DNA from: Cochliopodium minus
Taxonomy: Eukaryota > Discosea > Himatismenida > Cochliopodiidae
Direction of reading: 5' to 3'
DNA length: 37,129 bases
Assembly: GCA_024220525.1 (NCBI GenBank)
Contig: JAMYWO010000351.1
Location: 1-37,129 of the forward strand
The notes beneath the pieces were generated by a model that saw only the letters and a program-made list of their open reading frames with translations, was not told where the DNA came from and did no database searches. Every line of letters starts with the position of its first letter. Positions within the stretch are counted from its first letter, which is position 1. Positions 3,360 to 32,299 of the stretch are shown piece by piece. The translations under genes and the position numbers were made by a program.

Positions 3360-4210
3360 TTAAAGATCGTCTTCATCCTCAGGAATTGGAAGGTTAGCTG
3401 CTTGCTCCATTTCTAAATTGTATTGTCTCAACAAATTCTCATCAATAGTAACCTCAGGAGGTTTAAGAGCAGGAGATTCAACAAAGGTAAGATTTTGATG
3501 ACCAGTCAATTTTCTTGCCAACCACAAGAAAGGCTTTTCAAAGTTATAGTTTGATTTTGCAGAGATATCATAATATTGGAGATTTTTCTTTCTGTGAAAG
3601 GTGATTTGTTTTGCTTTTACTCTTCTATCTTTGATATCAATTTTATTACCAGTAAGAACGATTGGAATATTTTCACAAACACGAACAATATCTCTATGCC
3701 AGTTTGGTACGTTCTTGTAGGTTACTCTGGAAGTTACATCAAACATGAGAATAGCACATTGTCCTTGAATATAATATCCATCTCTCAATCCTCCATATTT
3801 TTCTTGTCCTGCAGTATCCCATACGTTATATACAATTGGTCCGCAGTTGGTGTGGAATTTGAGAGGATGTACTTCAACTCCAACAGTAGCTTGAAAAATA
3901 AGATAATTTTTAAGAATTTGTGAAGAAATATTTATATAAATTTTGCTTTTTGAATTAAAAGATGTTATAATTTAAAACTTACCAACATATTTCTTTTCAA
4001 ATTCTCCTGTCAAGTGACGTTTAACGAAAGTGGTTTTTCCTACTCCACCATCACCTTTTTATTTGAAAATTTTTTATTTACAATTTCTTTTCAAGTTTGA
4101 GAAATAATTTTACCGACAAGTACCAATTTAAAGTTTGGGATGTTTTGTTGATTTTGCTAAATATTTTGAATATGATTAATTAACAGAAGATTTCTTATTT
4201 ATTTTACCAT
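3360..4210 (-). CDS. Ran: Ran, nuclear-transport small GTPase
   Basis: Exons 4210-4208, 4156-4114, 4054-3983, 3889-3360, 215 aa, essentially the family length of about 216. Exon 1 codes only the ATG. Motifs in order: P-loop GDGGVGKTT, switch [11 protein letters not shown] with the effector Thr, switch [27 protein letters not shown] (G4), [14 protein letters not shown] (G5), and the acidic C-terminus PEDEDDL that is diagnostic of Ran and lacks a prenylation Cys. Ran cycles between RanGTP in the nucleus (RCC1) and RanGDP in the cytosol (RanGAP), driving importin/exportin transport and spindle assembly. Very high confidence in identity. Confidence 0.97.
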
Positions 4211-7672: not shown

Positions 7673-8881
7673 TCTCTAATAATTTTTTTATTTCTTCAAT
7701 CACCATTTTTTTCCATAAACAAAGTATTTTCGAAATTTACTTCCTCAAACAATGAATTAATTTAACTGTAAATAATGTTTTTGATTAATACTGAAATATG
7801 GTGAATAAATTTAATTCCTCTTTTTTTTAAATCCATTGTTTGAAATATATTTATTTTAAAAAATATATGTATGGAAAAGAAAAAGTAAATTAATTGAAAC
7901 AATCTTGGGAAAAACTCAAGTCAACTCTTAAAGTATTAACGAAAGAAATGCAGGAAATCCTTGGGGAGTATATATTGGCCACCATAGTTGATAAATCAAA
8001 TAAAGGCAACCTCAATGACAATGGTGATTGAAGATAACAATTCCATTCCACTTTAAAATTACGATAAAGATAAACAAGATCTTTTCAATCCTTCATTTCT
8101 AGGACTTTTTTGTAGCCACAGGCTAATTCAAAAAGTTACTGAAGGAAAACTACATGTCATTCTAATTGTGGGTGATCTGAGCAGAAGAAGTTCAATACTT
8201 AATATTAAATCAAATAATAATAATAAATACTAACATTTCTTTTTAATTGCAAGCAATAGATTTCAGTTTCAATTTGTCAACCAAATTATTCTGCCTCTTG
8301 AGGATGACAGACTTTGATAATTCAAAAACAAAGGCCAGGATTTTTAGTGGTATAGATCTGATTGATGCTCAAACATATCTTGGAAGAGAATGTTCCTCAG
8401 AATCTCTGATCTAGATCAACCTAACAGAAGAATTCTGATTGGAGAGTGGAAAGAATGTGAGATAGATTGTCTTGACTAGATGGGAAGTTATTGAAGAAGG
8501 TGTTGAATTTCCAAGAAGATGTCGAGAATTTGTAAAAAACTCTTTGGGGAAACAAAGGATATGCCAAATAATTAAAATGAAACTATCATTATTCTTTTAT
8601 TTCTTTATATATAGAATTAAACACTATGTGATTTAATTGAATTTTCTTTACAGAAAAAATCCTTTTTATTACTTTTTGGACTGTAAATTTCCATGTCTTT
8701 TGACACTTTGTGGTATTATAGTGGATTCCAATTTCTAAATAGAAGGATTTCACATAATTGAGAAAACTAATATTTTTTTTTTCTCATCGTTTTGTTGACG
8801 ACAGTTAAAGTTCCATCCTGATAAAAATTCTATTAAATTTCAAAAAAGTAAATAAATAAAAAAAAAGCCAAAAATAAGATC
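7673..8881. other. Intergenic region upstream of the 7-TM and LOV-RasGAP genes
   Basis: About 1.2 kb between divergent genes. The flanks are AT-rich. The middle (about 7900-8570) has visibly more balanced composition and short open stretches interrupted by stops; see the pseudogene entry. From 8570 to 8881 I see no coding signal. Promoters for both neighbours must lie here, but no motif can be named. Confidence 0.5.
7905..8572 (+). pseudogene. Decayed coding-like sequence, family unknown
   Basis: Three patches read like protein on the + strand. About 7905-8030 encodes SWEKLKSTLKVLTKEMQEIL and some 20 more residues before a TGA. About 8059-8230 encodes DLFNPSFLGLFCSHRLIQKV onwards. About 8300-8572 reads TKARIFSGIDLIDAQTYLGR, then continues in one frame through internal TAG, TGA and TAG codons into IVLTRWEVIEEGVEFPRRC. 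Standard stops end every other gene here, so recoding is unlikely and decay is the simplest reading. Lack of clear splice sites and base composition above background support an old gene or mobile-element relic. I recognise no family. Confidence 0.35.
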
Positions 8882-11800
8882 ATGGGGAATAAATTTGATT
8901 TATATCTTCAACATCAAGCAAAAGTATTCAATGAGAATTATATAGATGCAAACAATTTTAAATTGTCACATAAAAAGTTGAAATCAATCCAGAAATTGAT
9001 CATGAAAGGTTTGATATAAAGGAAAAATATAAATTTATAAATTTTCTTACTATTTATTTCTATTGATAGAATATAAATTCATCCAGACCATCCATGAAAG
9101 TATGTTACTTTGTCACAACAAACTAAAAGATTGTCCGATCATCTTGCAAAATGAAAGAGTAAAAAAATTATTCAATAATTTTTATTTATTATTTTTTTTA
9201 TTTTTTTGAAATAGTTTTCCACCATGACAGGATATAAAGAAGAAGAGATTCTTGGAAAAAACTGCAGATTCTTGCAAGGAGAAAATTCATCAAAGGTAAA
9301 AATTAAAAAAACATTTTTTTTTTTTATTCCCATCAATTACACGAATTTCATCATATAGGAAGTGGTTCAAAAGATGAGAGATTGCATTTACAAAGGGATG
9401 TCTGTAAACATTCTTTAAATAACAAAATTTTTTTTATAATTCAAATTTTTGATAGTGCCGTGTTGAATTATTGAACTACAGAAAAGATGGATCGACATTT
9501 TGGAATGATTTTGTTTTATTGCCAGTTCATAAGAGAGCAAACAAAAATAATAGGGTCACATATTACATTGCAATCCAGAAAGATGTCATTATCTTCCCCT
9601 CTGAAGGAGCATTTCTCAAATCTGGAAAAATACAAAAGATTGAAGTGTATGGAGATCAAGTCCCTCCAATTGAATCATTAGCATTTACAATTGGATATTC
9701 AATGTAAATGAATTTCTCCTAATATTCTTTAATTAACCCCTTTTTTATTTCTATCAGTCCAAATTTGGTAATGAAGATATTTTTTTGGCTTATTATATCA
9801 ACAATATAAAGTCTAAATATTTAAATTTAGATAATATTATCACTTTTATATGATTAATATCTATTATCATACTTTCGTCAACAAGAAAATCATTTTTTTT
9901 TTTCAATAATATAAGGATTTATTGAATGATATCAAAAAAGAAACATCCTTATCCAAAAAAGATGGAATCCCATATTGCTTCAAAGGTAAAATAATCAACA
10001 AAAAACTTTCCAAAAAAAAAAAAACTTTTTATTTCTTCCCCCTTTTTGATTTAAAGTGAATGAATTTTGTGATTGGTTCAAAAAAAAATACAAATTGGAA
10101 GATCCTCAAATAACCAAGGATAATTTGAAATCATTGTTGGAAACCGATCTCATCTTTACAAATTCTTCCTCCAATCTTGATGATGAACAAAATTGCTTGA
10201 TTTATCTTCAAGATAAAGAATTTCTATCATTCGAGAACAAAACAGATGATCATCAATTCATTTTGGAAATGCTAAAAAAAGATTCCCTATTATTAATCAG
10301 GTAAATAAATATTTAATCTCTGATATTTTTTTTATAAAAATTTCTTACTTTTTTTTTAATTTTTTATTTAATTTATTTTATTATTTTTTATTCATCTATT
10401 TTAACATTATTTTTTTTAATTTATTTCACCAAAATATAAATAGATGTGTTTTTGAGCTTTTAAGAGAGAAATCTGATCAAGATGGTCTTTGGAAGTTCCT
10501 TACTTTCCTGGAAGAACAAGGGTTAAAAGATTTGATCAAAATATTGAGTAAAGAGAGAATTAAATCAACCAGTAAAAAAAAAAACTAAAAAATTTAATCA
10601 AATATTTTTTTTAATTATTTTAATTATTAATTTTTTAATTATTTAATTATTGAACATTAAATATTTTTTAATTATTAAATTCTTGTTAAATATCATTATT
10701 TATTTTAATATTAATTTGAATTATTTTAATTAAATAGTTTTTATTCCAAATAAATTCAAATATTTATTTTCAAATATTTTAAAATTATTTTTTGATATTA
10801 ACCTAAATTATTTTTAAATATTTTTAATGTTAATCTAAATTATTTTTAAATTATTTTTAATATTATTTTTAATATTATTTTGGAGGATTATTTTTAATTA
10901 TTATTTCAAATAGAAAGCGAAAATACTCTTTACAGAGAAGATGATTTGGATACATGGTTGATCAAATCAGTATTTACAATGCAAGGACAAGAGTACTTAA
11001 ATAAAATATTTGAGGAAGTTAACAGAAAACTAAATTTGATGCCAGATTCTTTTGAAGTAAAAAAAAAAAAAAAATCAATTATTTCTTTACAATCAAATTT
11101 ATTAATTTTAAATTAATAAAAAAAATTAATTTAATTTAATTTAATTTTTTTTTTATTTTTTTTTATTTTTTTTTTATTACTGTAGATTAATCCTGAACAT
11201 GTTGTGGATAAGTTTTTTTTGATGACAAATCTAATGAACATTGTTTTGATGTGTAAGGAAATTTTAGATTCCCTAGAAAATTACATCAGTTTACTTCCTG
11301 AGTAAAAAAAAAACCAAAAAAAATTTTTATCAATTTAATATTTAACATTTTTTTCAAAAATCATTTTTAAAATATTTGAACTTTTTTAAAATTTTTTTTT
11401 AAAATTTTTTTTTTAACATTTTTTTTACAAATAAGTTTTTTCCGTGTTATTCTCAAAATAATAACAAATGAGACGATAAAGAAATTTCCAGAATCAAAAT
11501 TAAAACCAGTACTCTCCATGTTTTTTCTGAGATATTTCCAACCAACTTTCATCTCCCAAAGTTTGGACAAAAATGATAAAATAAAAAGAGCGTCAATGAT
11601 GATCTCAAAAGTATTTCAATGTTTGTTAAACAAAGTTTCTTTTTTTCAAGAAATAGAATCTGAACAAATCTTTCCCTCCCAATTTTCTGTTATCACTGAA
11701 ATTTGTGAAAAAAAAATCGAGAAACTCGTTCTTCTTTTCACAGAGGAGGATTGTCAAAATAGTTTATTAACCAAAGGGGGTGTCATCAATTCTAATTTTC

Positions 11801-12284
11801 CAGTTCTCTTCAGTCATAGTTCTACTCTGGAAAGTAAATTTTTTTTTTAAAATTTTGCCCTGATTTAATTTAATTTCTTAAATTCTTTTTTTTGATAGAT
11901 AAGGAAAAACCCAACGAATTCAAAAAGAATAGTTCCTTAGATTCTATCTACATTGACAACAAGAAGAATTTTTTAATATCCACTGCAAACTATTCTTTAT
12001 CTAGTCAATACAATCCTGTAACTAATCGAAACAGTACAAAATCTACTCTAAAAAATCCTTTAACCAACAAAAGAGAATCCAAAAGTTTTGAAGTGTCGAG
12101 AATCAACTTTATTTCTCTTTTTGTATTTGAGAATTCATCCGCCCTTTCTCAAAAACTTCACTCCTCTTTTCAAAACAGATCAAATGAAGAAGAATTTAAA
12201 GATGTTTCATATCTTTTGTCACGTATCGATAGATTGAGTTCATCTTCTAAAGAAATTGAAAATTTCTACAAATTACATGACTAA
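8882..12284 (+). CDS. LOV photoreceptor domain fused to a RasGAP domain
   Basis: Thirteen in-phase exons: 8882-9008, 9070-9158, 9215-9295, 9359-9403, 9456-9703, 9758-9767, 9916-9985, 10057-10300, 10444-10571, 10914-11056, 11186-11301, 11436-11833, 11899-12284; 694 aa. The LOV domain (about 45-160) has FSTMTGYKEEEILGKNCRFL with the adduct-forming Cys89, NYRKDGSTFWN (Asn121, Asn131) and IAIQKDV (Gln155), the flavin contacts of phototropin LOV domains. A linker (about 190-305) contains a possible DEP-like helical segment (FCDWFKKKYKLEDPQ). The RasGAP domain (about 305-550) has the arginine finger in NTLYRED (Arg355), then KKFPESKLKPVLSMFFLRYF (Arg466) and KRASMMISKVFQCLLN. A polar Ser/Asn tail follows. 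Predicted role: light-gated acceleration of Ras GTP hydrolysis. Domains are seen; coupling is inferred. Confidence 0.93.
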
Positions 12285-12448
12285 TAAGTGAGGAATTAAT
12301 TAAACCTTTCTTTTTTTTTATTTAAAGTCTTGTTTTTTGATGGTTGGGAAAATTATAGTCAAATATCCTTTAAAAATAAAAATTAATTCTTTTTGGTGAT
12401 GAGAAGAAACAATATAAATCTGAATTTCAACCATTTTTTAATAAATTA
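12285..12448. terminator. Short convergent 3' intergenic region between two RasGAP genes
   Basis: Only about 164 bp separate the two stop codons. It must contain both polyadenylation regions. Several AATAAA-like and T-rich stretches occur (for example aaataaaaatt near 12374 and taataaatt near 12440), so the transcripts may overlap at their 3' ends. Confidence 0.4.
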
Positions 12449-14349
12449 TTATAATATGTCATCTATTCTAATTTTGCTCAAAAATTGTACAGTTAAACCA
12501 AACTCTTTTTTGATGTTACTAGGTTGATTAGAAAGATCCTTAGCAACAAGACAAAGAGAATTAGTGAGCATTTTGAGAAAAGAATTCAAAACTTCTTTAT
12601 CTATCTCCTCGAAACTTAATTCTCCAAGGCAAAGATCGGAGTAATCAGGAGGAATATCCTACAAATGAATGAAAAATGAATGTGATAATCAAATAAAAAA
12701 TAAATTTGATTTTACAATAACTTTCAATAAAAATTCCTCGAAAAGTGTCTGCTTTTTTAAAACGAAATCATTAAGGAGGATATACTCAGAGTCGTCTTGA
12801 AAAAGAGTTTTGTTGGCCACATGTTGCAAAATTTTGGAAATAAAAACTAAAACTTCCCTGTCTTTCTTTGTTGTTGCTTTTTCGGTCAGTCCTGCTTCCT
12901 TTGGTGCAACCAACGCTGGATTGATAATTCTCAAAACCAAAAACCCTAAATAAAAATAAAATAATAAATAAAAAATAATAATAATCATAAAAATAATTTA
13001 ATAAATTGAAAAAAAAATAAAAATAATTGTAGAAAAAGATACCAGCAACTTGTAAAAGAGAAGAATTAGGATACTTGGACTTGGTGTGATTATGAATAAA
13101 GAGACAAATGAGGCGAATGGGGAGAGGAATGAGATGGGCACTGTCGCAAATTTTTTCAATCATTTTTTCTGTTTCCTCCAAAACTTCCTCCATCCCCCTT
13201 TTCTTTTCCTCCTCTTCCCTCCTCTCCTCTTCTTTCCTCTTCTCCTCTTCTTCTTCCCTCTTCTTTTCATTGTTTCCATTTTCTATACTTTCTTCATTAT
13301 TATTAATATTGTTATTATTATTATCAATCTTGTTATTATTGTTATTGTTAACAATATTATTATTATTATTAAAGGTATTATTTTTTTTGTTGTTGTCATT
13401 TTTATGATCGGTATAAAGGTTAGTTCCATGAAGGTGGGTATTATTAGGGAGAAAAATATTGTTTTCACTGATATTTTTGAGGGGTTTTGTTTCAACAGCA
13501 TAATAAGAAATGTTATCCATACTTTTAACATGTCCCTTCTTATTTTTTTTATCTTTATTCTTGTCTTTAATCTTATTATTATTATTTTTATTGTTATTAT
13601 TGTTGTTGTTATTATTATCTTTATTCTTATTGTTATTGTTATTATTATCTTTATTGTTATTATTCTTATTATTATTATTATCTTTATTCTTATTGTTATT
13701 GTTATTATTATCTTTATTGTTATTGTTATTGTTATTATTATCTTTATTGTTATTATTATTGTTATTATTATCTTTATTGTTATTGTTATTGTTATTATTA
13801 TCTTTATTGTTATTATTATTATTATTATTATCTTTATTGTTATTGTTATTGTTATTATTATCTTTATTCTTATTAATTTTATTATCTTTTTTATTATTAT
13901 CTTTTTGAATGGAGAAGATGTTATCGGTACTTTTAGAGGGAGAAGGAGGGTATTTGGGAGATTTAGGATTCATTTCATTCATCTCATTCATTTCATTCAT
14001 TTCTTCTAAAAATTCATAAAATGTTGTCTCTTTTTTATCCTCTATATTAGTAATTATTCCTATTTTCTTTTCTTTTCTATCCTCCTTGTTACATTCCTTT
14101 ATACCCTCCTTTATATCCTCCTTTGTACCCTCCTTGTCACATTCCTTTATATCCTCCTTTATATCCTCCTTTAAATCCTCCTTTATACCCTCCTTTGTAT
14201 CCTTTTTATCTTTTAAATTTACTTTTGTTGGTACATTCTCTTTTATTACTTTATTACTTTCATCCATTACATAACTATTTCTATTTATATCTTCTCTATT
14301 CATATTCATTTTATTATCATAATTATTATTATCATTATTATTATTATTA

Positions 14350-14380
<31 letters not shown>

Positions 14381-14509
14381 CATTATTAATAACAACATTA
14401 TTAAGATTAATATTATTACTATTATTAATACCAACATTATTATTACTGTTATTATTATTATCATTATTATTATTGATATTATTATTATTATTATTATTAT
14501 TAATATCAA

Positions 14510-14575
<66 letters not shown>

Positions 14576-17396
14576 TATTATTATTTATGTTATCAGTTAT
14601 TATATTCATATCATTCTCTTTAATGTTTTCTTTATCATTCTCTTTGTTATTAATTTTATTATTGTAAATGGTGTCACTATTCATTTCACTGGTAGAAGCC
14701 TTTTTTTTAATCTTCAAAAAAAATTAATTCTTTAACATTTTAATAAATATAATTAAATAAATATAAATGTAAATATAAATATAAATATAAATATAAATGT
14801 AAATATAAATGTAAATATAAATAAATTAAAATAAATTAAAATAAATTAAAAAAATTAAAATAAAATAAATTAAAATAAATTAAAATAAAATAAAATAAAA
14901 TAAATAAATAAATCAAAGTAATAAAATAAAGAAAGTTACGTGATAAGATTTGCCAGAAGAGGAGATGTTGTGAAGAAGAGTATCTAAAATGAGATGCAAG
15001 TAGGAAGAAGAGAAAGAAGAAGAGAAAGAAACAGTCAATTTGGTGGTAATATTGTTTTTTCTAAAAAGAGTACTTTCAGATTGAGTCATGAAAACTTCTA
15101 AAGAAATTATTTTATCAATAAATTTCAATACACTCGTCCCTTTTTGATTAAATAAATGTAAAATATTATTTGCTAGTTTTGTTTGATCATTTGCATTTGA
15201 TATTCTTGACATTGCTATCAATATTGGATTATACTCATAAAATATTTCTCCTATTGGTGTTTCCCTTGTTGTTATCATACTTTTTTTAAAAAAAACAAAA
15301 TTATAAAAGTAATTTAATAAATAATTTAATAAATAATTTAATAATAATTTAATAAATAATTTAATCTATAATTTAATAAATAATTTAATAATAATAATAA
15401 TCACAAAACATTTTTTAATGAATATAAAATTAAACACAAAATAAAAAATAATAAAAATAAAAATAACAATAACAATAATAATAATCACAAAACATTTTTT
15501 AATGAATATAAAATTAAACACAAACAATTATTTTAAATATAAATTAACAGTAATATAAAAAATAATAATATAAATATAAATAAATATAAATAAAAACCTT
15601 TTGTATTTTTCACGTCGAGATGTGCTGGGAGGTTCACTTAACAAAGAATTAAATTTGTGAGAGGAAATTTTTGGTAAACTATATCCTGTTCCATTATTTC
15701 CGTTCACATTGTTCATATTACCCATACTCATACTGCCCATCTGATTCATATTATTGTTGGGAGAAGTAGATAGGATGTTGTTTCTTTCATTTTTATTGAC
15801 ATTATTCACAGTATTTGTAGTTGAATTAATAGTATTCACAGTATTCACAGTATTCATATTTGAATAAGTAGTATTCACAGTATTTGTATTTGAATTATTC
15901 ACATTATTTGTAATTGTATTATTCAAACTGCTCATACCATTATAACTGCCGCCAAAAGTACCATTATTATTAAGAGGGGGTACATTATAAATGTTGATGG
16001 GAGAAGTCGTCAATGAATTTATTCTCTTCCCTCCCCTATTATTCCCATTATTGCTATTATTATTGATATTATTATTACGGTCATTATGAGGAGAAAGAGT
16101 ATCAGATTTAGGTGAAGAAATGCTTTCACTGCTTGTTTTATGAGGAGATGAAATGGTAGATTTGGGTGAAGGGATGATGCTGTTGCTGGAAAGATGAGAG
16201 GCTTGAAGATTGGCCTTCAAATAATTGATATCCTGTGTCTCTGTATTCTCATCAATAGAGGTGTTGGTTTCTGTATTATAATCATCAATGGAAGTATTGG
16301 TGTCATTGGTGTAATCATTTGTATCATTATTGGTGTTGGTCTCATTATTATCATTAGGTTTATTGGTGATTTTGAGATGATCTTCCAAGATGGTTTTTTC
16401 GTGGAGATATTGATTTTGAGAAAAGAGGATTTTCAATAATTTTTCAGAGTGAAAAAGAGAAAGAAAAGAATTGTTAATTTCATCATTTTTAGGTTTGAGC
16501 AATTTCAAATTGTTTAAACTGATATTACCAAATGTGAAATTGGAGAAATTAAAAACCAGACATACATCATTCTTTCCCATAAGAGGGTTGTAATTCAACA
16601 GAATAATTCTATCTCCAAAAGAATAATCTTTCAATTCTTCAAAATAATTGTCGCTTCTTAGATTGTAATTTCTGAATGTGAAATTATTTTTTCTCTGAAT
16701 TATTATTGCCTCAATCAATTCTATTTCTATTTCTTCAGAACCCTTTCTAGGAGTAAATGCACTAAGAATTTTTTGTCCTATTGTTTTTCTCTTGAGAGCC
16801 TTAGGGATGATGGGATCTTTTTCTCTGTTTGTTCCAATTATTAATTTTGGTATTCCTTCATCAGATTGTGTTATTTTTTGTAGAGAAATAGAAGGAATAA
16901 AATTATTTTTAAAAGAAGATGCCTTTTGATTTGTATTTTTGGGTGATTTTTGTACGTTTTCTGTTATTTCAATATTTTTCTCTATATCTACATTTTTTGT
17001 TCCTTCTACATTCGGAGAAGAATTCATTACTATTTTATTCACCAAATTTTCATTGTTGGGCGAAATGGATAATGAATTTTCATCTATTGTTGGTTCATCT
17101 TCCACTTTTTTTATCTCATTAGTTATATTCAAAGATACAATATTATTTATATTCGAAATTTTGGTGTTAAATCTTTTCCCGAAAATTGGATCATTTTTCA
17201 ATTTCGTAAAAAAATCTTCTTCCTCTTCAATATTCTTCGCTTTATTCTTATTTCTTTTGAATAGTTTGAATTTATCTTTTTTCTTTTTCATTTTTTCTTC
17301 ATCTTTTCTAAATACAGTGGGTCTTGCACTCTCCATTGTTAATGAATGTGTTGAATTTGTTTGTGATAAATTTATTTCTGGAATTTTATTGTTCAT
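12449..17396 (-). CDS. RasGAP-domain protein with large poly-Asn insertion in the catalytic domain
   Basis: Exons 17396-15598, 15279-14940, 14711-13043, 12945-12716, 12658-12449, in phase, 1415 aa. The N-terminal about 600 residues are Lys/Asn/Ser-rich with a possible folded part around 225-330 (SFGDRIILLNYN, DVCLVFNFSNFTF). The RasGAP domain starts near 600: IFYEYNPILIAMSR, then the arginine finger ESTLFRKNN (Arg673). Exon 3 then inserts over 450 residues of poly-Asn, KDNNNNNNNN repeats, KEDIKEG repeats and a Glu/Arg coiled-coil-like stretch. The domain resumes with IRLICLFIHN, FLVLRIINPALVAP (Arg1275) and KDREVLVFISKILQHVAN. Arg finger to FLR spacing is about 600 residues against about 115 in p120GAP. 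Predicted Ras GTPase activator; the folded halves can pair if the insert loops out. Confidence 0.9.
13560..13890. repeat. 30-bp tandem repeat coding (KDNNNNNNNN)n
   Basis: A minisatellite of about ten imperfect copies inside exon 3 of the second RasGAP gene. On the + strand each unit is about tctttattgttattgttatt plus attatta; on the coding strand it gives Lys-Asp followed by about eight Asn. The unit keeps the reading frame, so copy number can change without frameshift. Confidence 0.9.
14100..14215. repeat. 12-bp tandem repeat coding KE(D/G)(I/L/T)
   Basis: A degenerate 12-bp repeat (+ strand like tcctttatatcc) encodes about ten units such as KEDI, KEGI and KECD in the charged part of the RasGAP insertion. 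It preserves frame and probably forms an extended or helical charged linker. Confidence 0.8.
14318..14575. repeat. ATT/AAT trinucleotide repeats coding poly-Asn
   Basis: Long (ATT)n tracts on the + strand, the longest at about 14510-14570, give uninterrupted Asn runs in the RasGAP insertion. The antisense reading gives artificial Ile or Leu/Tyr runs that should not be annotated as proteins. Confidence 0.95.
15405..15525. repeat. Direct repeat of about 38 bp, spaced about 80 bp, in an intron
   Basis: The block beginning cacaaaacattttttaatg and running through taaacacaaa occurs twice (about 15405-15442 and 15486-15524). It lies in the first intron of the second RasGAP gene, among AAT and ATAA simple repeats. 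Likely a local duplication. Confidence 0.75.
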
Positions 17397-17727
17397 TCTC
17401 AAAATACAAATATCAAATTTTTTTTTTTAAAATATTTTGAAATGTTTATTCTTTTTTTATGTTAAATTCCCAATTTTTGATCTGGAATTATTGTTAGAAT
17501 TCAAAGCATGGTTTGAAATTTGTTACTTTTATTTTATTTATTTCAAAAAGAGATGTGAACCTCCTTTACATTAAATTTTGATTTATTTTTCTAATATTTC
17601 TCATGAGAAAGGGATGACATACCGATATCTTTTAACTTAAATAAAATTCTCCCTTTTTGAAATTATAAAAATATTAATAAAATAATAAAAAAAAATCTAT
17701 ACTAAATAAGATCATAAAAAACAAAAT
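17397..17727. promoter_or_regulatory. Divergent intergenic region, RasGAP / armadillo protein
   Basis: About 330 bp between start codons on opposite strands. AT-rich with T tracts. No nameable motif and no ORF of note. It must hold both promoters. Confidence 0.5.
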
Positions 17728-23220: not shown

Positions 23221-25176
23221 ATGAAGAAATTTTTGTTAGTATTAGTATTATTGGTTGCATTATGCTCATGCCAATCCTTTAAAAAACCACAAGGTATGAT
23301 GTTGTCTCAATAATACAAAATTCTTTATTCAATAAAAAAAATAATTATTTGAAAACAACATTAATTTCACTTAAATAGGAATCCCTGGGAGCTATAGATT
23401 GATCCAAACCTCAGAAAACAATGCAACATGGATGTCACCTGAAAATGCAGAAGAGATTCAAGAATGTGGAAAGAAAACACACAAACATGGTTCTGGATAC
23501 TTTGACATCACCGATTATCCATCTTTGGGAAAAGTCAGAGTTCCAACCGTAAAAGACTTTAAAATAAATAAATACATACCCAAATAGAAAATGCTTTAAA
23601 CTTTTCTTTAATATATTTATAACTAACAATATATTGTATAAACATCTTAATCGAACATCTGATATAATTTTTTATAAATTTTTTTTAAAATTTTTTTTTC
23701 CGTTTTATTCAGCCTGCTCCATTGCCATCTCCTTGCCAATTCAACGATGCAGTTGTGGAAGAAATGATAAGTGAAATCAACATGACCAACTGGATCAACA
23801 CAGTCACCTCCCTCCAAAACTTTGGTACAAGGTAAAGATTTAAAAAAAAACCAAATTTTAAAATTTATATTGATCAAATTCATAAATTATATATAGATAC
23901 TACACTAACATCAAAGGAAAAGAAGGTAATGAATTTTTTTTTTATTTTTTTTTTTATAAATTTTTATAGCTGCTGAACAAATCCAAAACTGGACTGCAAT
24001 AATTTGCGGGGAAAAGTGCAGCTCTGTCCTCTTTCAAAACACATGGCTCCAACCTAGCGTCATTGTAACCATCCCAGGAGAAGGAGAACTCGCATCTCAA
24101 CACGTAGTCATTGGTGCTCATCTTGATAGTACTGTAAACCATTCTTTTTATTTTTCATTAAAAATAATTTTTAAAATTATTTTTAATTTTTTTAGGCTAC
24201 TAGCACTGCAAATGGTCTCGACAAAAACATTAATATTTTTTTATTTACAATTTAAATTTATTGATCTCATTTTCTCATTTAAAATATTTTACTAAAAAAT
24301 TTTTTTTTCATTTTCACTATTGAAGCACCTGGAGGTAAAATAAATTTTTCATTTCAAAATAATATTTTTTTTTAACAAATTTTAATTATATTTTTTCATA
24401 TTTCTTATTTGTTTAGCTGATGATGATGCATCAGGAGTTGCAGTTTTGATTGAAACCTTGAACGTACTCATCCAAGTTGGTTACAAACCAAAAAGAACCC
24501 TTGTTTTTCAATTTTATGCTGCAGAAGAGGTCGGTTTGAGAGGTAACTTCCAATCTTTTGTGTCCTTTTATTTTTATTTTTACTTTTACTTTTATTTTTT
24601 TTTAAAATTCTTTTAAATTATTTTCATTTTATTTCTATTTTTTATTAATTAATTAATTTTATTTCTGTTACTTTTAGGATCTCAAGCTATTGTTGATCAA
24701 TATGTCAAAAATAACATTGATGTTTATGCTATGGTTCAATTTGATATGGTGCCCTTTTTCTCTTTATTATTTGTTTTTTATTTTTAATTTTTCTTATTTT
24801 TATTTAATAAAAGGTTGGATACTCCAGAACCAACCCAATTTTCATCACTGATTATGTAAGCACTGAATTGACCACTTGTTTGAGACAATTGGCCGCTCAA
24901 TTCAAACACCATCCAACCTGGGGAACAAATATTTGTGGGTAAATTTTAAATCCCAAAAAACATTTTTCTTTTATTTTATTTTTAAATAGGTATGGTTGCT
25001 CCGATCATGCTTCATACCACAAAGCTGGATACAGATCCTCTCATCCTTTCGAAGCACAACCAGACAGTTCCAATCCATACATTCACACTGCTAATGACAA
25101 AATCGATGTTTTGACTCCTGCCCATGGTCGTTTGTTCATTGAATTGTCTCTTGCTGCAGTTGAAACTTTGGCATAA
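23221..25176 (+). CDS. Secreted M28-family zinc aminopeptidase
   Basis: Eleven in-phase exons: 23221-23293, 23379-23548, 23713-23831, 23897-23925, 23970-24133, 24196-24214, 24326-24334 (9 nt), 24417-24542, 24678-24748, 24814-24938, 24990-25176; 363 aa. The signal peptide [17 protein letters not shown] is followed by a pro-region with [10 protein letters not shown]. The catalytic domain has all five zinc ligands of M28 leucyl aminopeptidases: His in IGAHLDST, Asp in APGADDDASG, Glu in [11 protein letters not shown], Asp in QFDM and His in [12 protein letters not shown]. The 9-nt microexon supplies the APGA motif. Paired cysteines (CLRQ, NICGYGC) suggest a secreted or lysosomal enzyme that trims N-terminal residues from peptides. 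Confidence 0.96.
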
Positions 25177-25246
25177 ATTTTATTTTGTTTATCAAAAGCC
25201 TCAAAGATAAAAAATTAAAAAGTTTTGAATTCAAAAAAAAAAAAAA

Positions 25247-26148
25247 NNNNNNNNNNNNNNNNNNNNNNNNNNNNNNNNNNNNNNNNNNNNNNNNNNNNNN
25301 NNNNNNNNNNNNNNNNNNNNNNNNNNNNNNNNNNNNNNNNNNNNNNNNNNNNNNNNNNNNNNNNNNNNNNNNNNNNNNNNNNNNNNNNNNNNNNNNNNNN
25401 NNNNNNNNNNNNNNNNNNNNNNNNNNNNNNNNNNNNNNNNNNNNNNNNNNNNNNNNNNNNNNNNNNNNNNNNNNNNNNNNNNNNNNNNNNNNNNNNNNNN
25501 NNNNNNNNNNNNNNNNNNNNNNNNNNNNNNNNNNNNNNNNNNNNNNNNNNNNNNNNNNNNNNNNNNNNNNNNNNNNNNNNNNNNNNNNNNNNNNNNNNNN
25601 NNNNNNNNNNNNNNNNNNNNNNNNNNNNNNNNNNNNNNNNNNNNNNNNNNNNNNNNNNNNNNNNNNNNNNNNNNNNNNNNNNNNNNNNNNNNNNNNNNNN
25701 NNNNNNNNNNNNNNNNNNNNNNNNNNNNNNNNNNNNNNNNNNNNNNNNNNNNNNNNNNNNNNNNNNNNNNNNNNNNNNNNNNNNNNNNNNNNNNNNNNNN
25801 NNNNNNNNNNNNNNNNNNNNNNNNNNNNNNNNNNNNNNNNNNNNNNNNNNNNNNNNNNNNNNNNNNNNNNNNNNNNNNNNNNNNNNNNNNNNNNNNNNNN
25901 NNNNNNNNNNNNNNNNNNNNNNNNNNNNNNNNNNNNNNNNNNNNNNNNNNNNNNNNNNNNNNNNNNNNNNNNNNNNNNNNNNNNNNNNNNNNNNNNNNNN
26001 NNNNNNNNNNNNNNNNNNNNNNNNNNNNNNNNNNNNNNNNNNNNNNNNNNNNNNNNNNNNNNNNNNNNNNNNNNNNNNNNNNNNNNNNNNNNNNNNNNNN
26101 NNNNNNNNNNNNNNNNNNNNNNNNNNNNNNNNNNNNNNNNNNNNNNNN
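25247..26148. other. Assembly gap (902 N)
   Basis: A scaffold gap. The sequence before it ends inside the M28 3' UTR A-run; the sequence after it lies 3' of the PIG-S start. The rest of PIG-S would be expected here. Confidence 0.99.
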
Positions 26149-27637: not shown

Positions 27638-28775
27638 TTAATTGATGATAAAGTTTTGAAAATTCTTTTTGATCCACTCTGGCCAATTATCGGTCTTGAT
27701 CTGCAAACTAATGATCCTGTTAAAAAAAGTGTCTTCATCCAAATTGAATTCCTTTTTGGGGTGAGAAGAATAAAAGTTGTTGAGGTAAGATAAAAAAAGT
27801 TTTTTGCGCAAGTCTTCAATATCCCTTTCGTTGGACTCATTTACAGTTTTGAGAGTGTTCATTTTTTTCCTGAAAGATAAAGACCTGAAATCATCTGAAG
27901 ACAAATCTTCGTAGAGATCTGAAATTTCCTCTTTCTCTGAAATGACTGTCACATTTTGTTGTTTTCTTATTTTTTTAGGAAGGAGATTGTAGATATCTGA
28001 TTCAATCAATTTGAATTCTCTTTTAATTTCTTCAAGAAATTTATTTGCATTTTGCTTTTCGGGTATCTGATTCAGTTCTAATGCTTGTTTCAGACTGAAT
28101 CCATCCGATTTCAAAATATCGATCTTTTTGAGAGAATTCAGCATAGATTTTTCTTGAGTGGTCAATACATCCAGAATCCAATCCAATTCTACCTCCATAG
28201 CTTCTCTTCCATAATTATCTTCAAAATCTTCAAATTTATTTTGTGAATTTGTACCTTTTGATTCAAACCGATTATATTTGAATTATAGTGAACATCCAAA
28301 AATTTACCAAAATTAGTTGATTTATCTAATTGTGCCAATTCTTGGCTTTGTATCTTTTTCAAAACGAAATATTCTGACCATGATTGTATTCCTCTCTTCA
28401 GTGAGGGAAGATCCATTGGATCTTTTGTTTTTATGATGAATGATTTCTTATCTTTTTGAGTTATCAATAATGCATCTTCATTTTGTACAGTGGGTGGATT
28501 TTTCTCTATATCTTCAATTTCTGTCAATGAAATGAATTCAAGATGTTCCAATACATCTTTAGAGGCATATAAATATATTTTATCTCCTTCCTAATTATTT
28601 ATTTGGATGAATAAAGGAATCATTTTTAATTTTTGAACAAATTTGAAACCAAACAATAGTATCTTTGTTCCCATTTTCTAAATATTGGCAGGATTGATGG
28701 ATTTAATTGTAATAAATAACCTTGAAGTTCGATTCTTGATGTATTCACTTGATCAAGAGATTCATATTTTGACAT
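27638..28775 (-). CDS. PH-domain protein with C-terminal helical region
   Basis: Exons 28775-28650, 28590-28308, 28254-27638, in phase, 341 aa. A PH domain spans about residues 18-120: GYLLQLNP, RKWEQRYYCLEGDKIYLYAS, ALLITQKDKKSFIIKTKD, and the closing helix with the conserved Trp (SLKRGIQSWSEYF). After it the chain is predicted helical and charged (MEVELDWILDVLTTQEKSML, EIKREFKLIESDIYNLLP), without a domain I know. It likely binds phosphoinositides or a GTPase at the membrane. It is divergent from the RhoGEF gene, with 190 bp between start codons, which hints at shared regulation of two cytoskeletal or membrane-signalling genes. Confidence 0.85.
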
Positions 28776-28965
28776 TCTATTTTTTTTTATTATTTCAATA
28801 AAGTGAAAAATTAAATTTGTATCACAAAGATGTGGAATTTGTTCTTTTTATCAACATCAAATATTGCAGAAAGAAATTGAATGTCAGTTATTTTTTTTAA
28901 ATTTGTGAAAATAAAAAAAAAAATTGAATTTTCATATAAAACATTTAATACTCCTACTCTTAATA
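28776..28965. promoter_or_regulatory. Divergent promoter region, PH protein / RhoGEF
   Basis: 190 bp of AT-rich DNA between two start codons on opposite strands. No named motif seen. Its small size implies shared or adjacent core promoters. Confidence 0.5.
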
Positions 28966-31900
28966 ATGGATTCAATTACCATTAATACGGAAAAGAATAT
29001 TGGCATAATAAAAGATCATTTGTTAGAATATACAAAGAAAGAAATTTATAAAGATCCAATATACAATAAAATATTTACCCTATGTGAAACCTCCCTAAAA
29101 AATGTTTTGGATGAGAAACGATTCAATAAGAAGAGGGATTTAAGAGAACTATCTATAAATTTTCATTATCTCTATCATATTCTCGAAAAATCAAATATCG
29201 AGAAGAAAGAAGCTGCAAATTTTCTACTGAATGAACAATCTATAACATTTTGGCAAGATGGGGTATTAATAATTCGATAAAAACAATTTTAACTAATAAA
29301 TAAACAATCAATAAATAGGAAATAAATAAGAGTTGGGATAAATTCCATGACATTTTTGGTTCTTTATATGGTTTGACAGATAAAGATGGATTGGATTTAT
29401 TAAAAAAGATACTGGATCCTGAAAATACAAATGTGATAGAAGCTTGGAGATTTGGATTATTTACATATATACGTGGAAATCTGATGTCCTTCATACATGC
29501 AGTCAATGATATTCGTACAATTCCCTTTTTTCAAAAAAAGAAAACTCAAAAATTCATTTATTATTTTTTTATACGTTTTTTATTTACGTTATAAAATTTA
29601 ATACATATTTATTTATTATTATTTTCCCTCTATTAGATCTAATTCCTTCATTTGGATCGAGATCTGAAAAGTTGAAAAGAACTCGAATCTTGAATGGGAT
29701 AACTGAAAAGGATCTATTGGATTATGGAAGCTCGTATGAAACATTAAAATTGTTAGGGACAATTAATAAAATGAAACAAACACAAGGAGGAAATTTATAT
29801 GTAGAATTTGTGGAAGATAACATATTGACAGATAAAATCGATGGACTATTTCCCAATCAGAATGTGGTGATGAAGGATGGATTGCATTGTGTGGATGAAT
29901 TGTATCCTGAAGAGACAATCAAGAGAAGAATAAAGAGAAGATTGAATATAATAAGAATGATAATGCAGGAATCTCCCATCTCTTCCTTTACTGATCGAGA
30001 TAACGAATTGAAGAAGAAGATTGAGAGAGGTGGAGAAGAGCAAAATCTCTCTCCCTCCAACGAAAGAAAGCTCCAACAATACATCTCCTCCACCAGCCAA
30101 TCTATCATGAGGCTCATACAAAAGCAACAAGCCTTCTACGAAACCTTGTTTCTTCAATCACAAACCGCTCCTGAACAACAAGTGGAACTCACAAAAACCA
30201 AGAGCAATGAAAACTTTATCAAAACACATTATGATAACTTGACTCCTTCCAAGAGTAAGTCTAAAAGGAAAAAAGTTCACGGCTCTTTGATTCTCAATGA
30301 TACTTCTAGTATGATCAGCTCACCTTCTCTCATTCCTACTGAAGGGATCTCTTTCGAAAGGAAACTTGAAAAATCCAAAAATTTCATAAACAACAAATTC
30401 AAAGATATCGAAAAGAAGAGAATGAGCGTCCCCAAAATAGACATGAGCAGCATCAATGAACTTAGGCAGAGCATCAATGACGAGGAGACATCCTCTTCTA
30501 TGAGCTCCCAAGAAGAAAACATTAGTATCGCCTCCATCTTCAAACAGTTGTACAAATTGGAGACACAGCTCAAGCAAAGAGAGGAGAACGTTTCCCTCAG
30601 AGAAGAAAAACTCCGCAGAGAGAAAGAAATCTTTGAGAGGGAAAGATCCGAGTTCAAACTTTTGAAGCAGCAACAACTCGAGCTCATTTCTCTCTGGAAA
30701 AACGATCTTTCAGATCGCATGGGCAAAAGCAAAAACAACTTTGAAAACACTGCCAAGAATCTCACCGAGAAGGAAAAGGAGAGGATCGTCTTCATCCAGA
30801 GGTACTGGAGGAAAGTTTTGGACCAAAAAAAGCTGATCAAACAAAAACTCCATTTTCTCAAGCAAATCACTCTCTCTGAAGAGTTCAGCAAACAAAGAAA
30901 AAGACTTTACGCTTTCAAGGAGGTTTTTAGCACGGAGAGAGCTTATTTCCAGGCTTTGAGCATCGTTTACAACAAGTACTTGATGCACTTTAAGGAGAAG
31001 AACAACCAGATCATCTCTGACAAGCAGTGTGAGTTTCTCTTTCTTGGTTGGACTGAGATCTACAACATTCACAAACAGGTTTTGAACGATTTTGAGTCGA
31101 GGCTTACTCATTGGCCTGCCAGAAACACTGTTGGTGATCTTTTTATCAAATATGCTCCCATGTTCAAAATGTACAACATTTTTTTTTTTAAATATTTTAA
31201 TTATTTTTATTTTCTTCTTTCACCTTTTTTTTTTGATTTTCTTTTTTTTATTTCATACATTTTCTTTGGAAAAACCAAGGTATGATAGATTCGTAAAAAA
31301 TTATGACAATGCTCAAAAAATAATTGGAGAATTGGGTGACAACAAAAGTTTCAATGAGTATCAAAAAAGCATAGATGAGAGTAAATCCTTTATTAAAATT
31401 TTATCAATATTATTATTTTTTTTTAAGAATATTTTTTCTATGAAATTTTATTATTTTAATATATTTTTTTTTTCAGAATATTTTTAATTTGATTTTTATT
31501 ATTTTTAAATATTTTTAAATTTAAAATTATTTTTTCGAAAAAAAAAAAGAATTCAGCTCTCTTAATATTTGTGGATTACCATCATTGTTGATAAGACCCA
31601 TACAAAGACTTCCAAGATACATTTTGCTTATCAACGCTTTGCTTGATTTGACTCCTCCCTCTCACATCGACTTCAAGGATCTCACCAAAGCTCTGGAGCT
31701 TGTCACAGAAGTCACCAACCGTGTCAACAATAACAAACATAAATTCGAAATCTTGGGTGATCTCATTTCTGTTGAGAGTCAAATTCTTAACATACCGAAA
31801 AATGTAAAAAAAAATTATTTTATTTTTATTCTTTTTATTTATTATTTTTTAACATTATTGTCAAATTTGACCTTTTATTTTTTTTTTTTATTCAATTTTA

Positions 31901-32299
31901 TTTTTTTTTTGTTAAAAAATTATATTTTAAAATTTTTTTTCTCTTTTTTAAAATTTTTTTTAATAGATTCAATTGGTGGAGAAATCACGAAAACTTATTC
32001 ACAGTGGGAATTTGATAGATATTTTCACTGAAAAAAAAGAAAAAAATCACTTCTTCCTCTTCAACAATCTCCTCATTGTCACCACTAAAAAGGGAAAGAA
32101 GTACGAATGGAAAACATCTCATCAGCTCGGAAAACTTTCTGTAAAGGAAATTCCCGACACTGAAAATGTAAAACATTCTTTCTCCCTCATTTCTGAGAGC
32201 AATGGCAAAAAAAATATTTTTGGCTATTCTTGTTCCTCACAGGAGGAGCAGCAAAAGTGGATCGAGATGATTAAACTCCACATTTCTGACAAAGACTGA
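28966..32299 (+). CDS. Dbl-family RhoGEF (IQ motif, DH, PH)
   Basis: Exons 28966-29262, 29319-29514, 29637-31170, 31280-31380, 31550-31803, 31967-32299, in phase, 904 aa. An about 330-residue helical N-terminus is unassigned. Coiled coil at about 470-530 (LYKLETQLKQREENVSLREE). IQ-like motif at about 551 (FIQRYWRKVLDQKK), a possible calmodulin or light-chain site. DH domain about 588-795, with CR1 AFKEVFSTERAYFQAL and CR3 LLIRPIQRLPRYILLINALL. PH domain about 797-902 with FFLFNNLLIVTTKKGKKYEW and the closing Trp in QQKWIEMIKLH. It exchanges GDP for GTP on a Rho/Rac GTPase. The central part (30000-31150) is richer in G+C than the rest of the window. Confidence 0.95.

Follow-up and report, generated by a model that had tools for sequence, protein, structure and literature searches.

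Does one natural protein join a LOV domain to a RasGAP, and could it then act as a light-gated Ras switch? LOV domains are modular units whose known partners include kinases, DNA-binding domains and RGS domains, and an earlier note on a locus of Cochliopodium minus had proposed that a LOV domain is spliced there in frame to a RasGAP. We analyzed the whole stretch of DNA concerned (the window, 37,129 nucleotides of contig JAMYWO010000351.1, assembly GCA_024220525.1) together with the genome around it (G000, 44.65 Mb in 598 contigs). The LOV-RasGAP gene is real and intact, and its product, as judged from sequence, is a candidate photoreceptor.

Joining the 13 exons (Table 1) gives 694 codons and a stop and reproduces the earlier model base for base. 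All 12 introns are GT..AG, with lengths of 52–342 bases and a GC content of 0.06–0.24, against 0.25–0.38 in the exons, and in the frame of exon 1 a stop lies upstream of the ATG without another Met between them. Introns of these lengths do not match those of Acrasis kona, which measure 9–95 bp in a genome of 44.02 Mbp (PMC11589745). A purpose-written splice finder, trained partly on this gene itself, returned the identical 13 exons from the whole window; with weaker penalties over 8001-12700 it substituted a shorter exon 1 and added four upstream mini-exons. When trained without the gene, with generic splice weights, it recovered 11 of the 13 exons identically; exon 1 was displaced, exon 8 came out shorter and seven spurious mini-exons appeared upstream, and its score of 357 compares with a maximum of 225 and a mean of 175 for 100 dinucleotide shuffles. 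Exact rebuilding, intron borders and the splice finder thus uphold the in-phase, 13-exon, 694-aa model of the earlier note, and C89, N121, N131, Q155, R355 and R466 stand at the positions it gave. The LOV-RasGAP architecture of the gene is almost certainly real.

Table 1 Features of the LOV-RasGAP gene, in window coordinates
Feature	Position	Strand	Remarks
LOV-RasGAP gene	8882..12284	+	13 exons, 694 aa; exact reconstruction, splice finder
Exons 1-7	8882-9008, 9070-9158, 9215-9295, 9359-9403, 9456-9703, 9758-9767, 9916-9985	+	
Exons 8-13	10057-10300, 10444-10571, 10914-11056, 11186-11301, 11436-11833, 11899-12284	+	
N-terminus MGNKFD..., aa 1-50	8882..9092	+	exons 1-2
LOV domain, aa 51-160	9093..9593	+	exons 2-5; PAS_9 64.4 bits; phototropin LOV E 5e-27
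Cys89, presumed flavin adduct cysteine in GKNCRFLQ	9263..9265	+	
10-base micro-exon 6	9758..9767	+	rebuilt model; C78 counterpart; residues found in P0001
DEP-like stretch, aa 205-285 (tentative)	9928..10241	+	Pfam DEP below cut-off
RasGAP catalytic domain, aa 346-505	10565..11649	+	exons 9-12; PF00616 31.9 bits; neurofibromin E 4.4e-10
Arg355, arginine finger in TLYR	10934..10936	+	aligns with TLFR of neurofibromin
Arg466 of FLR block	11530..11532	+	aligned with neurofibromin
SK..N motif, Lys492 to Asn499	11608..11631	+	aligns with neurofibromin SKILQSIAN
C-terminal tail	11899..12284	+	exon 13; motif EEFKDVSYLL.R.DRL.SSS common to C84

Both domain assignments are far beyond chance. At the N-terminal end, the spliced protein matches Pfam PAS_9 with 64.4 bits over aa 61-158, and a PDB search with this region is headed, among the best 60 of 162 matches, by phototropin LOV domains (E 5.3e-27). 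The likeness to phototropin LOV1 (PDB 1n9l, 8qi8) extends over GxNCRFLQ, NYRKDG.xFWN and the Gln, and C89 within GKNCRFLQ is present together with N121, N131 and Q155, two Asn and a Gln that in LOV domains contact the flavin ring. Across 148 domains in the best 120 of 258 homologues, position 89 is Cys in 126, positions 121 and 131 are Asn in 141 and 126, and position 155 is Gln in 120. Unlike phototropin LOV1, which has the usual Gly two residues ahead of this Gln, the protein has Ala153, a minority state (99 Gly, 14 Ala and 1 Ser among the 114 domains with both Cys and Gln). The profile, the phototropin matches and the retained adduct Cys and flavin residues confirm the earlier call of LOV and rule out a generic PAS domain; by these marks the domain at the N-terminus is a canonical LOV. 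It presumably binds flavin and runs a photocycle, and its photochemistry very probably works. LOV and PAS folds are able to sense other stimuli, and the flavin could serve a redox or oxygen sensor, or the domain could be a mere dimerisation module, light not being the natural signal; this is unlikely, given that the adduct Cys and three flavin-contacting residues are kept and that blue-light receptors are its closest relatives of known structure.

The C-terminal domain is more divergent, and here a second sequence helps: P0001, the 474-aa open reading frame of a EukProt Trinity transcript from a relative. The spliced protein reaches 31.9 bits on PF00616, against a curated cut-off of 28.3. A PDB search with the GAP region finds neurofibromin first (E 4.4e-10), followed by IQGAP2, p120GAP and SynGAP at E about 0.015, with three unrelated sequences all above E 1; a two-sequence profile of the gene and P0001 raises neurofibromin to E 9.8e-13, and all ten matches at E up to 10 are RasGAPs. 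The similarity to the GAP-related domain of neurofibromin, a protein without LOV, is remote (43 bits), yet it includes the TLFR-type finger, the FLR block and the SK..N motif, with which R355, R466 and S491-K492..N499 align, and these residues are also kept in P0001. Neither of two GAP exons taken singly has a Pfam match, and P0001 alone scores 24.7 bits, under the cut-off, so we call the domain divergent. A genome-wide PF00616 search gave 69 matches, none of them from the GAP exons of this gene, and those on its contig (C347) belong to a neighboring gene. The earlier assignment nonetheless stands: on the Pfam score of the spliced protein, the nearest solved relative and the aligned catalytic residues, the domain is a divergent RasGAP. 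An IQGAP-like domain without a finger was rejected, with R355 present, neurofibromin the best match and IQGAP2 only at E 0.014, and an RGS domain is absent among the four Pfam families found at E up to 1 in the spliced protein.

We consider the RasGAP likely to be catalytically active. Its divergence, with single exons that do not reach Pfam, and a homologue search in which the GAP half of P0001 returned only P0001, would also suit a domain that has lost catalysis and serves as a Ras-binding scaffold, but such a scaffold is improbable, since each of the finger, FLR and SK..N residues has its counterpart in neurofibromin and is retained in P0001. The query of that homologue search was the DEP-like and GAP part of P0001; a search with the SAM-like and GAP part of a further protein described below (P0017) likewise returned only its own query.

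Between the two domains lies a tentative DEP-like stretch, for which PF00610 gives 12.4 bits (E 0.16) here and 16.2 bits (E 0.01) in P0001, both below the cut-off of 32.7. AlphaFold models of P0001, alone and with exons from the window, had a mean pLDDT of 37.7 and 44.1 and were unusable. The protein starts with MGNKFD..., and an MG(N/Q) start is found in five of five aligned LOV rows, in an alignment from which C84 was left out and whose C78 row was cut at that Met by the analyst. Gly2 is present, as an N-myristoylation context would have it, and residue 6 is Asp, which is unusual for that context. The DEP-like stretch and the MG(N/Q) start go beyond the earlier note, as do the other LOV genes and the LOV-RasGAP in a second transcriptome reported below.

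The earlier note had also claimed one continuous gene and no artefact of neighbors. P0001, 57% identical to the LOV-RasGAP protein over the aligned part, carries the latter half of the LOV, the micro-exon residues, the linker and the RasGAP in a single frame. Within the genome, a micro-exon of 10 bases, flanked by AG and GT, occupies the corresponding position in the copy on contig C78, and the copy on contig C84 is colinear with the gene from MGN to the C-terminal motif. Comparison with C84 over 431 shared codons gives pN/pS of 0.16/0.85 in the LOV, 0.24/0.64 in the linker and 0.28/0.76 in the GAP, and an overall dN/dS of about 0.09 at a dS near or beyond saturation; amino-acid change is, by these codon comparisons, constrained in all three parts. 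The P0001 frame, the conserved micro-exon and the constraint bear out a single continuous gene and led us to reject an artefactual fusion. Two adjacent genes, or alternative transcripts of which one stops right after exon 5 to give LOV alone, would account for the immediate stop that is met when the exon 5 donor is read through, but the P0001 frame spans the end of exon 5, the micro-exon is conserved in C78 and the linker codons are constrained, so that we regard this as very improbable.

A LOV search of the genome gave eight matches in four places, namely C347, C84, C78 and C413, and all four share a LOV with an MG(N/Q) start. The gene on C347 (8882-12284) is intact and is the only LOV-RasGAP copy seen whole in the genome. 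C84 (L018) also has a GAP; unlike the intact gene it is frame-broken at a short A-run in LOV exon 4 (AAAAAAG at the break), falls about 10 bases short in the exon preceding the finger exon and lacks the micro-exon donor, defects that were read from the sequence by eye. Unless the assembly is in error there, this copy is probably a pseudogene. In C78 the two halves lie apart, LOV at 81-82 kb and GAP at 109-111 kb, and the LOV half is followed by a run of N; a 3,336-aa open frame next to this copy was dismissed as a run of N read through, and a 14,711-aa frame at C1 may have the same origin. C413 (L017, 3988-6105, minus strand) encodes an MGQ-LOV with a coiled coil, and a RasGAP is absent. In the C413 LOV, Met replaces Trp in FMNDF.

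The P0001 frame begins inside the LOV, with MFKKGIP, so that transcript need not encode the whole LOV. From the protein of P0001, this start would fit the same short A-run as in C84. The AAAAAAG run is apparently common to C84 and P0001, and decay or frameshifting would both fit. Because gene copies seem to decay, light sensing may be dispensable, and the present gene could belong to a decaying family and retain a RasGAP whose LOV has lost its importance: C84 is frame-broken, P0001 begins inside the LOV and a run of N breaks up C78. We give this little credence, as the C347 copy is intact and, among the three parts compared, its LOV has changed least (pN 0.16 versus 0.24 and 0.28). RasGAP matches at C51:109979-110670 and C308:5275-5679 are 31–40% identical to the GAP of P0001, and the genome LOV search gave no match on these two contigs; on sequence similarity they are possible pre-fusion relatives.

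A search for the same architecture in other eukaryotes, which the earlier note had suggested for protists, found P0001 (with the LOV from half-way) and P0017. PF13426 and PF00616 occur together in at least two proteins among the best 120 of 258 homologues. P0017, from transcriptome MMETSP1310 (taxid 464262), has a LOV of 66.0 bits and a RasGAP of 41.4 bits, both over the cut-off. The taxid resolves to Chloropicon mariensis; to our knowledge green algae are not expected to have a RasGAP, so the species origin of P0017 is uncertain. We take strain RCC2339 to be the source of the transcriptome. One source gives this strain as Chloroparvula japonica (PMC5656628), and another terms a different RCC2339 gene of uncertain authenticity (PMC5133447), so contamination is possible for P0017 too. 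P0017 shares the MGN start, the combination of LOV and RasGAP and the grouping of its LOV with ours; it differs in having a SAM-like stretch (seen by eye, with no Pfam match) where the DEP-like one stands, and in a GAP half that aligns poorly with that of the LOV-RasGAP gene.

In a LOV tree of 55 rows (three of our own and 52 of the 148 domains), for which the tool warned of few columns, our own LOVs group together (100/96), and with P0017 (99/73, which is not strong) and P0015 (97/94), and the LOV of the LOV-RasGAP gene lies apart from kinase-bearing LOV proteins. P0015, from another eukaryotic transcriptome, is a 936-aa protein with an MGN-LOV, a sub-threshold SAM and a long His/Lys-rich tail. 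We put forward only tentatively that a separate clade of eukaryotic MG(N/Q) LOV photoreceptors, apart from the phototropins, holds a natural one-protein light-gated Ras off-switch coupling blue light straight to Ras, present in two or more distant lineages of eukaryotes and with DEP-like or SAM-like middle domains.

For the C. minus protein itself, a light-gated Ras switch is a plausible reading of the sequence, and we lean towards one protein in which a flavin-binding LOV detects blue light and regulates a RasGAP of the neurofibromin type. Blue light would form an adduct between Cys89 and the flavin, Gln155 would reorient, and the change would travel through the linker and the possible DEP-like domain to free the GAP, whose Arg355 finger, Arg466, Lys492 and Asn499 would then accelerate GTP hydrolysis by Ras. 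Illumination would in this way lower Ras activity, and the site of action would probably be a membrane. That light changes the activity or the location of the GAP seems to us rather probable by analogy, because LOV proteins are modular by habit; that the coupling is light-on is a guess, slightly preferred over the reverse.

The genome offers a canonical Ras on contig C70 (L033), with YDPTIEDSY and a CAAX-like end. A Ras-family search of the genome gave at least 164 matches, scores being computed for 150 of the 771 candidates, and it also matched in 12 of 14 prokaryotic controls, so the count stands for small GTPases broadly. Many small GTPases are a trait of Anaeramoeba as well. In the present genome one Fe-hydrogenase-family locus was found, and a universal 18S primer had no match. 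The earlier note had further linked the protein to motility or chemotaxis, a link that finds no support in the window.

Other genes of the window concern small GTPases as well. The convergent neighbor (12450-17715, minus strand) is also a RasGAP, with pieces of 23.7 (below the cut-off) and 66.4 bits, a finger-like STLFRKN and, in the splice-finder model, an insert rich in Asn and several hundred residues long within the GAP domain. At 3360-4000 (minus strand) lies a Ran-like GTPase (Ras family 153 bits; Ran by eye), and a similar Ran-like fragment adjoins the GAP half of the C78 copy, a possible trace of segmental duplication. A RhoGEF-PH protein (28697-32299, plus strand; RhoGEF 131.9 bits) adds to these, so the contig carries several small-GTPase regulators. 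The lowest GC of 37 one-kilobase steps, 0.085, is at 25001-26000.

The closest known analogue is the fungal RGS-LOV protein BcLOV4, a natural combination of LOV and a G-protein GAP-type domain in one polypeptide. The RGS of RGS-LOV acts on heterotrimeric G-alpha and sits N-terminal to the LOV, whereas here the LOV comes first and is followed by a GAP of the Ras type, and the output of phototropins is a kinase. The comparison with RGS-LOV is hence one of how the proteins may work, the LOV-RasGAP falling outside the RGS class. BcLOV4 is described as binding membrane lipid under the control of light of about 450 nm (PMC8993538). We found no natural LOV-RasGAP in the open-access literature, a scope outside which the main LOV survey lies; the one paper found to mention LOV domain and RasGAP together uses the two words for separate genes, and the terms 'LOV-RasGAP', 'LOV-GAP' and 'Ras GTPase-activating' do not occur among the open-access LOV-paper matches listed.

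The gene draws attention to a group of eukaryotic LOV proteins that has been little charted. If the coupling is real, nature has a one-step route from light to Ras, a switch central to growth and movement, and the protein would offer optogenetics a natural scaffold for turning Ras off and would provide a testable hypothesis linking light to Ras-dependent behavior in a protist.
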